Source of the DNA: Halosolutus amylolyticus
GTDB lineage: Archaea > Halobacteriota > Halobacteria > Halobacteriales > Natrialbaceae
Assembly: GCF_023566055.1 (NCBI RefSeq)
Contig: NZ_JALIQP010000002.1
Span: forward strand, 62,001-126,000
Reading direction: 5' to 3'
Length of the DNA: 64,000 bases
Part shown: positions 51,767 through 58,191 of the stretch, piece by piece
How the letters are laid out: each line of letters starts with the position of its first letter
Position numbering within the stretch: the first letter of the stretch is position 1
Translations under genes and position numbers: made by a program
Notes under the pieces: model-generated
Seen by the model: only the letters and a program-made list of their open reading frames with translations
Database searches by the model: none
Told to the model about the DNA's origin: nothing

Positions 51767-52396
51767 GGCCATCTGCATCGCGATATCCTCCTCGAACGCG
51801 ACGTATCCCTGCAGGATCGCCGCGACGGCAACGTAGAACCGTTCGTCGGTTTCCTCGCGGACGTCGGCGGCGAGGTCGTCGATCCACGCCGAGAGGTGCT
51901 CCTCGTGGAAGACGCGCTGGTAGCCGAACGTCTCCTCGTGACCCTGGCGCTGCTGTCGGATCAGGTACCGGAGGAAGGCGAGTTCCACGGCGACGTAATC
52001 GTTCTCCTCGGGGTACTCCTCGGGCGGCGACCAGCCGGCGGCCCCGTAACTCGCCTCGACCTGTGCCAGCCCCGACCCGCGGAAGTCGGTGTCCTCGCGG
52101 TAATAGGTTTCGTGGGCCATGATCTGCGGTCGCGGGCCGACGAACAGGCGCGTGAATTCCCGTTCCAGTTCGTCCCGGACGGCCCCGGGATTGCGGTCCG
52201 CGTTCGCCTCGACGAACGCCCGCAACTCGTCGAATCCCCGATCGAGGTCAGCGCTGACGCTCTCGTTCGGAAGCCGAACTTCGCCGCTCAGTAGCGTTTC
52301 GACGAACGACTCGCTCGGGACGTCCGCGAACGCGTCGATCAGGAAGGTCACGAGTTCGAGCCTGGCGTCGTACAGCGCCTCCTGGTCGACGCTCAT
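51764..52396 (-). CDS. TorD/DmsD-family chaperone for molybdoenzyme maturation
   Basis: 210 residues, all-helical. Proteins of this family bind the Tat signal of molybdopterin enzymes until the cofactor is in place. Signatures: LEREFTRLFVGPRPQIMAHE (the family Y/F-x-x-L-F-x-G-P pattern), YYREDTDFRGSGLAQVEASY and NDYVAVELAFLRYLI. It is coupled by ATGA overlap to the multi-ferredoxin gene and lies back-to-back with the formate-dehydrogenase operon whose catalytic subunit has a Tat signal, so that subunit is the likely client. Stop codon shared with the family 2 palindrome. Confidence 0.88.
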   Translation of the reverse strand: MSVDQEALYDARLELVTFLIDAFADVPSESFVETLLSGEVRLPNESVSADLDRGFDELRAFVEANADRNPGAVRDELEREFTRLFVGPRPQIMAHETYYREDTDFRGSGLAQVEASYGAAGWSPPEEYPEENDYVAVELAFLRYLIRQQRQGHEETFGYQRVFHEEHLSAWIDDLAADVREETDERFYVAVAAILQGYVAFEEDIAMQMA

Positions 52397-54615
52397 TCGC
52401 TCCCACCTCGATCGTACAGGAGCGTGGCGCGACAGTCGCCACAGTAGTCGAAGATGCTCCCCGACGCGCTCGGTGCGAGGCCGGCGACGACGTCGCCGAC
52501 TTCCTCCTGGATCTTCTCGGCGGATCCCTCGCTCGCGAACGGCGTGCCGCAGTGTGCACACTCGCGCATCGAGCCCTCGAACACCTCGACCCACGGGTCG
52601 CCGTCCCGGCGCTCGGGAAGCAGGGTGAGATCGAGCCCGTCTCGCATGGTCATGACGTCCTCGATGCAGCCCTCCTCGCAGGTCCCGCAGTTGACGCATC
52701 GCTCGTGGTTGAACTCGAGGGTCGCGGTCTCCTCGTCGCGCCGGATCGCGTCCGTCGGACAGAGGTTCGAACAGGTCGGCGTGAGCGTACAGCCCTCCGC
52801 GACGTCCATCCGGGCGAAGTCTTTCAGGCCGCGGATCACGTCCCGATCGGGATCCGCGTGGTCGACGATCGTCCGGACGCTCTCGAGGGTCCAGCCGTGA
52901 CTGTCGAACGGCGGGTTCTCCCGGTCGGCGTCGCCGAACTCCGTTCGGCTGCTCGTGGAGCGTAGCTCCACGCTGCCGCCGGACTGCGTCCGGCTGTTCG
53001 CGGAACGTGGTTCCGCGCTGTCGATCCCGCCGGTGGCTTCGTGCTCGCCGACGGGGATCGGTGAGTCGTCCAGTTCGACGGCGAACGTCGAGATGTCCTC
53101 GACGAACGCCCCGTGATCGTCGGGATCGGGCGCGAAGAACCCGATGCGTTCGCCGAGACCGAGGTCCGTCGTCGCCCGGTTGAGGCGGTCCACGAGTTCG
53201 GACTTCGGATCGGGGCCCGAGTGCAGGCAGTCGCCGCCGCAGCCGACGATCGCGACGCCGTCCGCGCCGCAGGCCAGTGCGTGCATCGCGTGAGCCTCCC
53301 CAACGGTGTCCGTACAGTTCACGTGGACGGGAAGGATCGGCGGGTATTCGATTTCGGCCTTGCCAGCGGCGGCCAGGCGGCCGTACTCGGCCAGCGCGTC
53401 GTCCGCCCGTTCCGAGCAGACGAACGCGACGATCGGGGAGTCGACGTCCGTTCCCGATCGATCGAGGAGCCAGCCGCCTTCCTCGTCGGTCGGCCGGAGG
53501 AGGGCCTCGACTTCGCGAGCGATCCGCTCGTTCGACTGCTCGCGAAGCCTCGTCGCACCCGTGGGACAGGCGCTGGTACAGGCCCCGCAGTTCTGGCAGG
53601 CGTCCTTGTGGAACTCGACCGCGTCGATGCGCGATCGCTCGACCGCGTCGTGGGGGCAGGCCTCGACGCACTCGTTGCACCCCGGCTGACTCGAGTTCCC
53701 GGCCGCGCAGACGTCCATCTCGAGGTCGAGGTGGTCCGGTTTCTCGATCCCTCCGAGGAGGTCTTTCACGGCCGAGATTGTCGCCGCGTCGATCGGCGCG
53801 GTGTAGAAGCCGATCCGGCCGCCCCTGGTGCGCCGATCGGCGGCCGGGTAGACGATCTGGTCGAACTCGAGCGTGCGATCGACGCCCGCGAGATCGATCG
53901 CGTCGGTCGGACAGACGTCGGTCCACTCGCCGTCGGGCGCGTCGGGATCGATATCGACCGGGTAGCGCGTCACCGCGCCGTCCGGCCCGTCGTGGACGCA
54001 CTTCATACAGGAGATGCAGTCCTCGGTTACGCGGGCGTCGAGACGGACCGAAAACTCGCCGTAGCGTCCGTCGACGTCGACGACGCGTCCGCGCTCGATC
54101 GTCACGTCGTCCAGGTCCGCCGCGGCGTCGACGTACTCGTTGCCGTCCGCGATCAGGGTAACGTCGGCGTCGTCCGCGAGTGCGGCGGCCGTTTCGGGAT
54201 CGGCGACGACCGCCACGCTGTCGCCCGCTTCCCGCGAGATCGATCGGGAGACCGACTCCGCCTCGAGCCCCGCGTGCCGGGCGTTGACCATACGGGCCGT
54301 CTTGGCCGTCGCACCGGCCTCGTCGTGGACCCAGCCGGCGCTCTCGCGCTGGTCGACGAACGAGACGCCGTCGGGGTGGACCCCCTGTTGCTCGGCGACA
54401 CGTTCGATCGTCCGCTGGGCCCCTCGCTCGGGACAGGTCACGATCAACTGGTCGAGATCGTACTCGTCGATCACCTCCTCCATCGCGGGTAGCCCGTCCT
54501 GACAGAGCAGGCTCGAACTCGCCGCGACCTCGACCCCCTCGATCCCCTCTCGAACCCCCTCGAGATCGACGTCACAGGTGTCAGCACACGAACAGGCGAA
54601 ACTCCCGACTCTCAT
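52393..54615 (-). CDS. multi-ferredoxin protein with MvhD-like domain
   Basis: 740 residues, cytoplasmic. Approximate order: an N-terminal HdrA-like part with four Cys near the start (CSCADTC); a ferredoxin segment (CISCMKC near 204); a ferredoxin pair near 305-353 (CNECVEACPHDA, CQNCGACTSACPTG); an MvhD/FlpD-like electron-transfer domain near 395-485 (IVAFVCSERADDALAEYGRL, GVAIVGCGGDCLHSG); a variable linker near 515-570; a further ferredoxin pair (CTLTPTCSNLCPTDA, CVNCGTCEEGC); and a terminal zinc ribbon (CAHCGT, YCGDCR). MvhD-type domains pass electrons to HdrA-like bifurcating enzymes in methanogens. Being divergent from the formate dehydrogenase, it may carry electrons between that enzyme and ferredoxin, or regulate it. 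Confidence 0.85.
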   Translation of the reverse strand: MRVGSFACSCADTCDVDLEGVREGIEGVEVAASSSLLCQDGLPAMEEVIDEYDLDQLIVTCPERGAQRTIERVAEQQGVHPDGVSFVDQRESAGWVHDEAGATAKTARMVNARHAGLEAESVSRSISREAGDSVAVVADPETAAALADDADVTLIADGNEYVDAAADLDDVTIERGRVVDVDGRYGEFSVRLDARVTEDCISCMKCVHDGPDGAVTRYPVDIDPDAPDGEWTDVCPTDAIDLAGVDRTLEFDQIVYPAADRRTRGGRIGFYTAPIDAATISAVKDLLGGIEKPDHLDLEMDVCAAGNSSQPGCNECVEACPHDAVERSRIDAVEFHKDACQNCGACTSACPTGATRLREQSNERIAREVEALLRPTDEEGGWLLDRSGTDVDSPIVAFVCSERADDALAEYGRLAAAGKAEIEYPPILPVHVNCTDTVGEAHAMHALACGADGVAIVGCGGDCLHSGPDPKSELVDRLNRATTDLGLGERIGFFAPDPDDHGAFVEDISTFAVELDDSPIPVGEHEATGGIDSAEPRSANSRTQSGGSVELRSTSSRTEFGDADRENPPFDSHGWTLESVRTIVDHADPDRDVIRGLKDFARMDVAEGCTLTPTCSNLCPTDAIRRDEETATLEFNHERCVNCGTCEEGCIEDVMTMRDGLDLTLLPERRDGDPWVEVFEGSMRECAHCGTPFASEGSAEKIQEEVGDVVAGLAPSASGSIFDYCGDCRATLLYDRGGSE
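52933..53017. repeat. two 40-bp units, each of two short hairpins, inside the multi-ferredoxin gene
   Basis: Unit 1 (52933-52972): GCCGAAC-tcc-GTTCGGC and CGTGGAGC-gta-GCTCCACG. Unit 2 (52978-53017): GCCGGAC-tgc-GTCCGGC and CGCGGAAC-gtg-GTTCCGCG. The arms differ between units at three pairs, each change being matched on the other arm. The units encode a 15-residue repeat in the protein linker (S-A-E-P-R-S-A-N-S-R-T and S-V-E-L-R-S-T-S-S-R-T). Confidence 0.85.
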
Positions 54616-54876: not shown

Positions 54877-57800
54877 ATGAGCACCGATCAGGAGCCGGTA
54901 ACGATCGACCTCGATCGGCGCTCGTTCGTGAAAGCGAGCGCGCTCGCCGGCGGCCTGTTCCTCGGCGGCGGGGTCACCGGACACGTCCTCGGTGGGGCAC
55001 AGGAGGACGAGGACGGCGTCGTCGACGACGCGGATACGTCGAAGGTGATCTGCAACTACTGTGCCGTCGGCTGTGGGTTCAAGGCGGTCAAGGAGGGCGA
55101 CTCCTTCACCGCGATGGAGCCCTGGCACGAGAATCCGATCAACAACGGGTCGCTCTGTTCGAAAGGGGCCGGTATCCTCGAGACCGAGCACTCGCCCAAG
55201 CGGCTCAAACACCCGATGCGCAAGGAGGACGGCGAGTGGCAGAAGGTCTCCTGGAACGAGGCCTACCGGGAGATCGCCGACACCTGGCAGGAGACGATCG
55301 ACGAGTACAGCCGCGAGAGCGTCATGCTGCTGGGAAGCGCTCACCACGCCAACGAGGAGGCCTACGCCATCAGGAAACTCGCGGCCTTCATGGGGACCAA
55401 CAACGTCGACCACCAGGCGCGGATCTGTCACTCCCCGACCGTCACCGGGCTGGCGAACACCTGGGGGTTCGGCGCGATGACGAACACGATCAACGACTAC
55501 CGCAACTTCAACCTGCTCATCATCCTCGGGCAGAACCCCGCCGAATCACACCCGATCGCGATGCAACACATCCTGGAGGGGCAGGCCCGCGGCGGAACGA
55601 TCGTCTCGATCGACCCGCGGTACACGAAGACCTCGGCGCACGCCGATTACTACTACCGGATGCGGCCCGGGACGGACGTCGCGCTGGTGATGGGACTAAT
55701 CAACTACGTCCGCGAACAGGGCGAACTCGACGACGAGTTCCTCGACGACCGCGTGATGGGGTGGCCCGACGCCGCGACGGAACTCGACCAGTACGACCTC
55801 GAGACGGTCGCCGACATCACCTGGCTCGACGTGGCGCAACTCGAGGAGATCGGCGACCTGATCGTCGAGAACAAGCCCCACATCCAGGTGGAGTGGGCGA
55901 TGGGCGGCACCCAGCACAACAACGGAACCCAGAACATCCGCTCGTACGCGCTGTTCAGCCTCGCGACCGGGAGTGCGGCCCGATCGGGCGGCGGCCTGCA
56001 GGTCATGCGCGGCCACGCGAACGTCCAGGGGGCGACGGACCTCGGCGTGGACGCGAGCATCCTGCCGGGCTACTACGGCGTCGACTCGCCGGGCTCGTGG
56101 GAGCACTGGGCGGGCGTCTGGGACGAGAGTCCCTGGACCAGCGGGAGCACCTCCTTCGAGGAGATTTACGACCGGTTCGAGATGATGCCCGACGAGATGT
56201 GGAACGCCCTCGAGGTGCCGGCCCAGGTCGAAGAGGAGGAGTCCACCGAGGACGAAGAGGGAGAGGACACCGACAGCGAGGCCGAACAGGAGGGCGAGGA
56301 GGACGGCCTCGAGGAGACCGAAGACGCGCCGCTGGAGGAACCCGACCCGCAGTCGCTGATGTTCCAGCGCGGGCTGACCGTCGCCCGCTGGTACGAGGCG
56401 GCGCTGGAGCAGGAGAACCGCCTCCTCGAATCGGAGCTCTACCAGCCCGAGCCGCTGAAGATGGCGTTCTTCTGGGGTCACTCGGCCAACTCCATCAGCG
56501 AGATGGACCGGATGAAACAGGCCATGGAGAACCTGGACCTGCTGGTCGTCGTCGACGTCTTCCCGGCGGTCGCGGGGACGCTCCCCGACGACGCCGACGT
56601 GCTCCTGTTGCCGGCCTCGAGCCAGTACGAGCACGTCCGATCGGTGACGAACTCCCACCGATCGGTCCAGTGGAGCCAGGCCGCCGGCCCGCCGGCGCAC
56701 AACTCGCGGCCCGACCTCCGGATCATGCAGGAACTGGCCCACGAGATGGGCTTTGGCGAACACTTCGACTGGGGGTCCGGCCCGGAGATCCACAACGGCC
56801 AGAGCTCCTACGAGGACGCCCTCCGGGAGATCAACCTCGGCGTCCGCTCGATCGGCTACCAGCAGTCGCCCGAAAAGCTCCAGCAACACCAGGAGTACGA
56901 CTGGGCGTTCAGCACGGAGACCCTCCGGGCGGACACCGACGGACTGCCCGTCGACGGCGACTACTGGTCGTTGCCCTGGCCCTACTGGGGCGACGACCAC
57001 CCCGGCTCGCCGATCATCTGGACGAAGGAGGCCGACCCGCGCGACGGCGGCCACGACTTTCGCGAGAACTGGGGCATGATGGCCCCGACCCCGGACGAGT
57101 GGGAGGAGATGAACGTCGACAAGGAGTACCCGATGCAGGAGACCTACGATCAGGACGGCGAGGACGGCCTCAACCTGATCGCCGGCTCGTTCGAGGCCCC
57201 GTGGTGGGACGACCAGGAAATCAACGGCGTCCCGTCGTACCCGGGCTATGCGACGATCCTGCCGGACGATCGGGCCGACGCGTCGACCCAGACGATGCCG
57301 GTCGAGATGGCCCTCGACGAGGAGACGTCGGTGTACGACGCGGCCCAGGAGATCGCCGACCAGTACGACGACGTCGACGTCGATCCCGCGGAGTACGAGG
57401 AGTACGACTACGCACAACCGGATCCGCCGACGGGCCGTGGGAAGGCACGAGCGATCGTCTGGAACTTCCTCGACACGGTGCCGGTCCACCGGGAACCCGT
57501 CGAGAGCCCGCGACCGGACCTCGTCGAGGAGTGGCCGGCCAACGGCGACCAGACCAACTTCTGGCGACTCGACCAGAACAACGCGACGGTCCAGCAGCGG
57601 GCGACGGAGGCGGTCCACACCGACCTCGGGAGCGACGCCGAGGACGGTCGAACCCTCATCATGACGTCGGGTCGGCAGGTCGAACACCAGGGCGGCGGGG
57701 CGGAGACGCGAAACAACGAGTACACCGCCGATCGCCAGCCGCACATGTACGCGGAGATCAGCCCCAGCCTCGCGGAGGACCTCGACGTCGTCGGCGGCGA

Positions 57801-58191
57801 CGACCACGTGGTCGTCACGTCGGCCGACAAGGGGTCGATCCTCGTGAAAGCGAACGTGACCAACCGGGTCAACGGCGAGGAGATCTTCCTCCCGTACCAC
57901 TGGGGCGGAGTCTTCCACGGCCAGGATCGCTCCGACAACTGGCCGGACGGAACCGAGCCGCTGGCGATCGGCGAGAGCGCGAACATCATCACGCCGAGCG
58001 GGTTCGACGCGGAGACCCAGATGCAGGAGACGAAGTCGGGCGTCGTCCACGTCCAGAAGGCCACCCAGGGGGTGGTCGACGACCTGGACCTGGAGTTCAT
58101 CGACTACCCGCAGGACGAGCACGGACTCGGCGGACAGAAGCAGTACGACGTCCGCGAGTGGGACGTCATGGAGGGAGGTGACCAACTATGA
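54877..58191 (+). CDS. fdhA: formate dehydrogenase catalytic (alpha) subunit, Mo/W-bis-MGD, Tat-exported
   Basis: 1104 residues. It oxidises formate to CO2 on a bis-molybdopterin cofactor. The N-terminus DLDRRSFVKASALAGGLFLG is a Tat signal. A [4Fe-4S] site is formed by Cys59, Cys62, Cys66 and Cys94 (CNYCAVGCGF, LCSKG). The active-site segment VDHQARICHSPTVTGLAN matches FdnG/FdoG, with Cys184 in place of selenocysteine and the following His185 conserved; the next GFGAMTNTINDYRN also matches. The C-terminal dinucleotide domain ends TSGRQVEHQGGGAETRNNEY and later IFLPYHWGGVF. Residues about 448-491 are an acidic insert absent from bacterial enzymes. The overlapping downstream genes encode partner subunits. 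Confidence 0.9.
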   Translation: MSTDQEPVTIDLDRRSFVKASALAGGLFLGGGVTGHVLGGAQEDEDGVVDDADTSKVICNYCAVGCGFKAVKEGDSFTAMEPWHENPINNGSLCSKGAGILETEHSPKRLKHPMRKEDGEWQKVSWNEAYREIADTWQETIDEYSRESVMLLGSAHHANEEAYAIRKLAAFMGTNNVDHQARICHSPTVTGLANTWGFGAMTNTINDYRNFNLLIILGQNPAESHPIAMQHILEGQARGGTIVSIDPRYTKTSAHADYYYRMRPGTDVALVMGLINYVREQGELDDEFLDDRVMGWPDAATELDQYDLETVADITWLDVAQLEEIGDLIVENKPHIQVEWAMGGTQHNNGTQNIRSYALFSLATGSAARSGGGLQVMRGHANVQGATDLGVDASILPGYYGVDSPGSWEHWAGVWDESPWTSGSTSFEEIYDRFEMMPDEMWNALEVPAQVEEEESTEDEEGEDTDSEAEQEGEEDGLEETEDAPLEEPDPQSLMFQRGLTVARWYEAALEQENRLLESELYQPEPLKMAFFWGHSANSISEMDRMKQAMENLDLLVVVDVFPAVAGTLPDDADVLLLPASSQYEHVRSVTNSHRSVQWSQAAGPPAHNSRPDLRIMQELAHEMGFGEHFDWGSGPEIHNGQSSYEDALREINLGVRSIGYQQSPEKLQQHQEYDWAFSTETLRADTDGLPVDGDYWSLPWPYWGDDHPGSPIIWTKEADPRDGGHDFRENWGMMAPTPDEWEEMNVDKEYPMQETYDQDGEDGLNLIAGSFEAPWWDDQEINGVPSYPGYATILPDDRADASTQTMPVEMALDEETSVYDAAQEIADQYDDVDVDPAEYEEYDYAQPDPPTGRGKARAIVWNFLDTVPVHREPVESPRPDLVEEWPANGDQTNFWRLDQNNATVQQRATEAVHTDLGSDAEDGRTLIMTSGRQVEHQGGGAETRNNEYTADRQPHMYAEISPSLAEDLDVVGGDDHVVVTSADKGSILVKANVTNRVNGEEIFLPYHWGGVFHGQDRSDNWPDGTEPLAIGESANIITPSGFDAETQMQETKSGVVHVQKATQGVVDDLDLEFIDYPQDEHGLGGQKQYDVREWDVMEGGDQL

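Follow-up and report, generated by a model that had tools for sequence, protein, structure and literature searches.

Two 45-bp palindromic units in a ferredoxin gene of Halosolutus amylolyticus, and a family of such units dispersed through Halobacteriales

Two palindromic units in a ferredoxin gene

The window analysed here, a stretch of 64,000 nucleotides from Halosolutus amylolyticus, carries on its minus strand the gene for a 740-aa protein with several ferredoxin domains. In the linker ahead of the C-terminal ferredoxin domain, positions 52933-53022 consist of two 45-bp units, of which copy 2 lies farther downstream in the host gene. The features of the locus are:

52393..54615, minus strand: host gene (ORF) for the 740-aa protein, with Pfam FlpD at 395-515 and several Fer4-family (4Fe-4S ferredoxin) domains
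52930..52932, unstranded: boundary triplet GTC (on the coding strand a GAC codon), conserved beside hairpin A across the family
52933..52977, minus strand: element copy 2, 45 bp, encoding SVELRSTSSRTEFG with G before; covariance model match of 70.5 bits; specific to this species
52933..52949, unstranded: hairpin A of copy 2, GCCGAAC TCC GTTCGGC
52954..52972, unstranded: hairpin B of copy 2, CGTGGAGC GTA GCTCCACG
52978..53022, minus strand: element copy 1, 45 bp, encoding DSAEPRSANSRTQSG; covariance model match of 77.6 bits; common to same-genus orthologues
52978..52994, unstranded: hairpin A of copy 1, GCCGGAC TGC GTCCGGC
52999..53017, unstranded: hairpin B of copy 1, CGCGGAAC GTG GTTCCGCG

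Each unit is made up of hairpin A (7 bp), a 4-nt spacer, hairpin B (8 bp) and a 5-nt spacer. The arms of the four hairpins measure 7, 8, 7 and 8 bp, all are perfect and all loops are 3 nt long, in agreement with an earlier note on this DNA, which had described two tandem units with two hairpins and three-base loops apiece at 52933-53017; its unit length of 40 bp is corrected here to 45 bp, with the unit ending at the GTC of 53020-53022. The copies repeat with a 45-bp period and are 78% identical (22% different). Their 10 differences in 45 positions are divided among stems (6), loops (2) and spacers (2), and the six stem differences form three fully compensated pairs, just as the note had read them: arms that differ at three base pairs, each offset on the partner arm.

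We compared this arrangement with a null in which the synonymous codons of the linker peptide were resampled with local codon usage. Among 200,000 resampled linkers, 154,104 contained no such hairpin, 42,133 contained one, 3,665 two and 98 three, and none contained four. The four-hairpin observation is therefore real and beyond chance, and the codon-shuffled null that the note had proposed as a check did not refute it. A lone hairpin is unremarkable, because about a fifth of the resampled linkers contain at least one; the remainder of the host gene has one. The background of short palindromes is high in the DNA of the window, which holds 86 perfect hairpins of at least 7 bp with loops of 3-6 nt, as compared to 16-36 in mononucleotide shuffles.

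Orthologues of the ferredoxin gene differ by whole units. The window gene has two, those of the same-genus genomes G001 and G002 have one each, as has that of Natrialba asiatica, and the remaining orthologues whose linker was read have none; copy 2 is absent from G001, G002 and Natrialba asiatica alike. Copy 1 matches its G001 counterpart at 45/45 positions and differs from the G002 unit by one loop, changed from GCA to its exact reverse complement TGC, while outside the unit the gene is 9.6% and 15.9% different, respectively. The Natrialba asiatica unit has the same position and the same stems with another loop. Since copy 1 and the G001 unit are the same in genes that are otherwise 9.6% divergent, and copy 2 differs from copy 1 at 10/45 positions, copy 2 appears to be no recent tandem duplicate and would be better explained as a second, diverged member of the family that may have joined, in this species, a unit which the genus already had. 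A ferredoxin-like protein with two consecutive unit-like segments, GVEHSSTSSQRGSRAD-DSVEPCSTSSRPAAD, occurs in two genomes of the genus (L103, L259).

A dispersed family and its insertion sites

One more copy in the window genome lies inside a HerA-like ATPase gene, and genome-wide scans with covariance models revealed many others. A first model, built from four copies, was searched in 51 relatives at E <= 0.5 and matched in 47 of them, many matches lying below 1e-8. A second model, built from 102 copies and applied at E <= 1e-4, matched in 28 of the 33 sampled genomes of the same order (Halobacteriales), whereas among about 164 further genomes of the phylum just 2 had matches, each of them weak; these counts are lower bounds, since the phylum scan scored 30 candidates per genome. 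The highest score in GC-rich bacterial control replicons was 26 bits, as compared to 40-80 bits for family copies. In the window genome about 14 copies score above 40 bits, and at E <= 0.001 two genomes of genus g33 yielded 46 and 48 matches. The element is thus dispersed across Halobacteriales and scarcely found elsewhere in the phylum. We found no description of such a family in haloarchaea in the open literature searched.

The copies lie in genes for unrelated conserved proteins, including a HerA-like ATPase, MetX, PurD, aldehyde dehydrogenase, formate dehydrogenase-like proteins, an MBL-fold protein, a peptidase and histidine kinases, with MetX, PurD and aldehyde dehydrogenase confirmed by PDB matches and several of the other names resting on our reading of the sequences. 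In MetX and PurD the insert is opposite a gap in the best PDB homologue, where homologues have a shorter turn, and in aldehyde dehydrogenase it precedes the region aligned to the PDB homologue. The HerA-like gene gives a pair of empty and filled sites: the empty LYDDDGELK of many genomes becomes the filled LYD[DSAEQSSASSRTQSG]DDGELK, an insertion of exactly 45 nt. The ferredoxin and HerA-like genes therefore both show whole-unit presence or absence, which had been proposed as the test between insertion and gradual change and which, together with dispersal in unrelated genes, supports the earlier suggestion of an inserted, copy-spreading palindrome. On the gene tree the HerA-like insertion changes in presence 4-6 times, changes that could represent gain, precise loss or gene exchange. 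In the HerA-like gene of G001 (L209) the first hairpin is as elsewhere at this site and the second is different (GCGGG CAGAA CCCGC), as if a module had been exchanged. The formate dehydrogenase-like hosts (L114, L144) are from other haloarchaea; in the window, the gene adjoining the ferredoxin gene (54877-58191) by eye resembles such a protein. In PurD of L086, near residue VARATENSSGEQSDPRESAGD, there is a second extra segment relative to PurD of L093, which may be another, decayed insert.

Insertions prefer one orientation and one reading frame. The encoded peptide is D-SxExxSxSSRTxSGD, read in one frame in 65 of the 71 copies with a clear coding frame; one further copy encodes this peptide once an indel is allowed for, and of the remaining 5 at least 3 give a peptide of this kind with the order of hairpins reversed. 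All six frames of the window unit, read directly from the sequence, are open, and therefore the frame preference probably comes from filtering of the peptide and not from stop codons. The element also accounts for the SxExxSxSSRTxSGD-type peptides by which conserved haloarchaeal proteins are interrupted, and for tandem arrays at kinase N-boxes.

These arrays, NLFRN[SVEHGSTSSRTESGD]n, sit exactly at the N-box (NLFRN-SVEHG) of many histidine kinases and comprise one to several tandem units of 45-48 bp (L108:746-886; L079, L088, L097, L100, L122, L127, L133, L151), while other kinases of the same genomes have no units. The kinase N-box is either a birthplace or a hot spot of the element. An origin there, followed by expansion as tandem 45-bp units and later spread, would place the arrays where they are found and would be compatible with the reading preferred below; the start of the element, SVEHGS, resembles the N-box, but the same resemblance would equally make the N-box an insertion hot spot, and we regard such an origin as rather unlikely. 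Outside genes, similar hairpins in genus g33 are joined into longer intergenic arrays with related flanks. Mosaics in this genus combine numerous short hairpins with CTGYC-like spacers and include the element (L109-L112 around 650-940; L265-L269, L271, L274, L275), and about 120-290 bp of related sequence is common to several of these loci.

We also examined how copies might move. Flanking triplets match no more often than by chance, and a 3-nt target-site duplication was seen in 0/54 informative copies. GTC (the GAC codon) stands beside hairpin A in 80/98. A Y1 transposase acting in trans is not indicated: PF01797 had no match in the element-bearing genomes G001, G002, G155 and G052 and was abundant in one genome without element matches. 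We found no mobilising enzyme and observed no transposition event. Viral carriage was likewise rejected, as two pattern matches in viral contigs proved to be lone hairpins within unrelated coding sequence; the patterns tried brought up no true copy in viral contigs, phage records gave no match, and plasmid blastn returned weak or short matches, many of them bacterial.

Base pairing in the family and how it may be maintained

Across 102 aligned copies, 97.3% of stem cells were paired, and in 83/85 copies residues 3 and 8 of the peptide were coupled as A-A, V-T, E/D-S or G-P, figures that are partly selected in that the covariance model favours well-paired sequences. None of 500 shuffles reached the observed pairing values, and 14 of the 15 pairs had two-sided changes. 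The coupled sites are the second codon position of residue 3 and the first codon position of residue 8, a coupling that has no protein logic and is predicted by base pairing. Less affected by the model are the variety of pair types between sites and the contrast of stems and loops at one site: among same-site orthologous copies, stems vary at 2/60 sites and loops plus spacers at 15/24 (p = 9e-9), the stems being frozen and the loops changing in two genes (HerA and ferredoxin). Stems are moreover specific to their site across species (GGAGC for HerA, GGAAC for the ferredoxin gene), and the copies seen today therefore seem to have been inherited or exchanged along with the site instead of being fresh insertions. 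In same-site copies the stems are being maintained, and base pairing rather than the protein would dictate the amino acids that the element encodes. In addition, G-T or T-G pairs make up only 19 of about 1,500 stem cells (about 1%), a rarity that argues for pairing of DNA, not RNA.

In the reading that we prefer, at a probability of roughly 0.7, the window units are copies of a non-autonomous, dispersed, 45-bp palindromic element of haloarchaea that is maintained at the DNA level and kept only where its peptide is tolerated. Copies would enter as hairpin-forming DNA, mostly beside a GAC codon, at places where the protein has an acidic surface turn or an interdomain linker. Given a length of 45, divisible by three, and an open frame, host selection would then retain only those insertions that add the hydrophilic peptide SxExxSxSSRTxSGD. 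The stems would stay perfect because the DNA hairpin itself is copied, corrected or recognised. A DNA-hairpin process of this kind would fit the perfect stems, the scarcity of G-T pairs, the inverted loop and the absence of a transposase.

The strongest rival holds that template-switch replication creates and repairs the hairpins, so that quasi-palindromes in GC-rich genes are perfected and their loops inverted without any mobile element. A template-switch process that keeps hairpins perfect has been described for RNA hairpins (PMC8794818), and the ferredoxin units of G001 and G002, identical except that one loop is exactly reverse-complemented, are what it would produce, as is the swapped second hairpin of the G001 HerA-like copy. 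Reverse-complement loop pairs within the family point weakly the same way (p = 0.04 for hairpin B and 0.19 for hairpin A); as a family-wide symmetry, loop inversion is weak. Comparison of orthologous copies, however, showed no stem pair with compensated changes, and template switching leaves unexplained both the exact 45-nt empty sites and the presence of the same 45-nt family sequence in unrelated genes. The earlier suggestion that template switching perfects the hairpins has in its favour the inverted loop of one orthologous pair, with weak backing from the loops of the family and none from orthologous stems. As a full explanation it is improbable; it stays a rival or a contributor.

That the peptide is selected as a flexible acidic or polar linker, with the palindromes as a by-product, would agree with the strong preference for one reading frame, with the MetX and PurD inserts at turns that are shorter in PDB homologues and with the aldehyde dehydrogenase insert ahead of the aligned region. 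Codon resampling of the same peptide never yields four hairpins, however, residues 3 and 8 co-vary as base pairing predicts, and similar hairpins occur in intergenic arrays, which together make this account very improbable. A functional RNA or mRNA structure, for example one that causes pausing between domains, would likewise keep same-site stems frozen and loops variable, but this suggestion of the earlier note is disfavoured, and has at most a slim chance, given the rarity of G-T pairs, the unrelated hosts and positions, the lack of copies in most orthologues, the existence of intergenic copies and an Rfam search that returned no family at gathering score.

On the preferred reading of a DNA-level element, a more far-reaching proposal can be made tentatively, and we hold it to be somewhat less probable than its negation: that these units constitute a class of archaeal coding palindromes that may spread through core genes without a transposase by copying of DNA hairpins, with pairing dictating pairs of amino acids, and that may originate in histidine-kinase N-boxes.

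Comparison with known palindromic repeats

Several known repeats resemble the element in part. Like the GTAG REP/RAYT systems and the PATEs, it is non-autonomous hairpin DNA in repeated copies; it differs from the former in having no GTAG tag and in that the Y1 transposase does not track it, and from the latter, IS200/IS605-derived repeats that occur in Haloquadratum (PMC3119063), in that PATEs are related to IS605 ends and have their palindromes near their termini. A MITE of the DDE type is not indicated, the target-site duplication expected of one having been found in 0/54 copies at 3 nt. The small mobile repeats (SMR) of Haloquadratum are also haloarchaeal, transposase-free and without target duplication (PMC3119063), but SMR-A is about 110 bp long with terminal inverted repeats, whereas the element has two separate hairpins in 45 bp and lies mostly in coding genes.

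The closest likenesses are to two bacterial groups. Rickettsia palindromic elements (RPE) are short palindromic DNA inserted in frame in the genes of unrelated conserved proteins, with no dedicated transposase known (PMC10969869, PMC3733652), and the element shares with them in-frame insertion in coding genes and presence or absence as a whole in orthologues. The RPEs first described measure about 150 bp (PMC10969869), as compared to 45 bp here, with 3-nt loops on two hairpins of 7-8 bp, and the element is further set apart from RPE descriptions by its archaeal range, its nearly fixed reading frame and its family-wide compensated stems. CGTC-tagged REPs (Di Nocera 2013), known from a survey that lists bacterial phyla only (PMC3733652), are short hairpin modules, single or clustered, with intragenic copies and no associated transposase. 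The element is similar in all these respects and has a GTC-containing motif at one foot, namely CGTC in 60, TGTC in 18 and CCTC in 3 of 98 copies, where the first C may merely reflect the frequency of codons that start with G. CGTC-REPs, however, have loops of 4-5 nt, A-T at the first and second stem positions and a CCA tail, whereas the loops here are 3 nt long in 100/102 copies for hairpin A and 96/102 for hairpin B, stems start with GC or GT in 79/98 copies and most hairpins are followed by TGYY or CTGN. By these comparisons the element is analogous to RPE and CGTC-REPs without their defining features, and we class it as neither. Transposase-free palindromic repeats in genes, such as these two, have so far had no known mechanism. 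The present family occurs widely among haloarchaea, which include genetically tractable species, and recurs at defined empty and filled sites in core genes. Its compensated stems, frozen stems and loop inversions provide a built-in read-out by which mobility, template switching and selection can be told apart.
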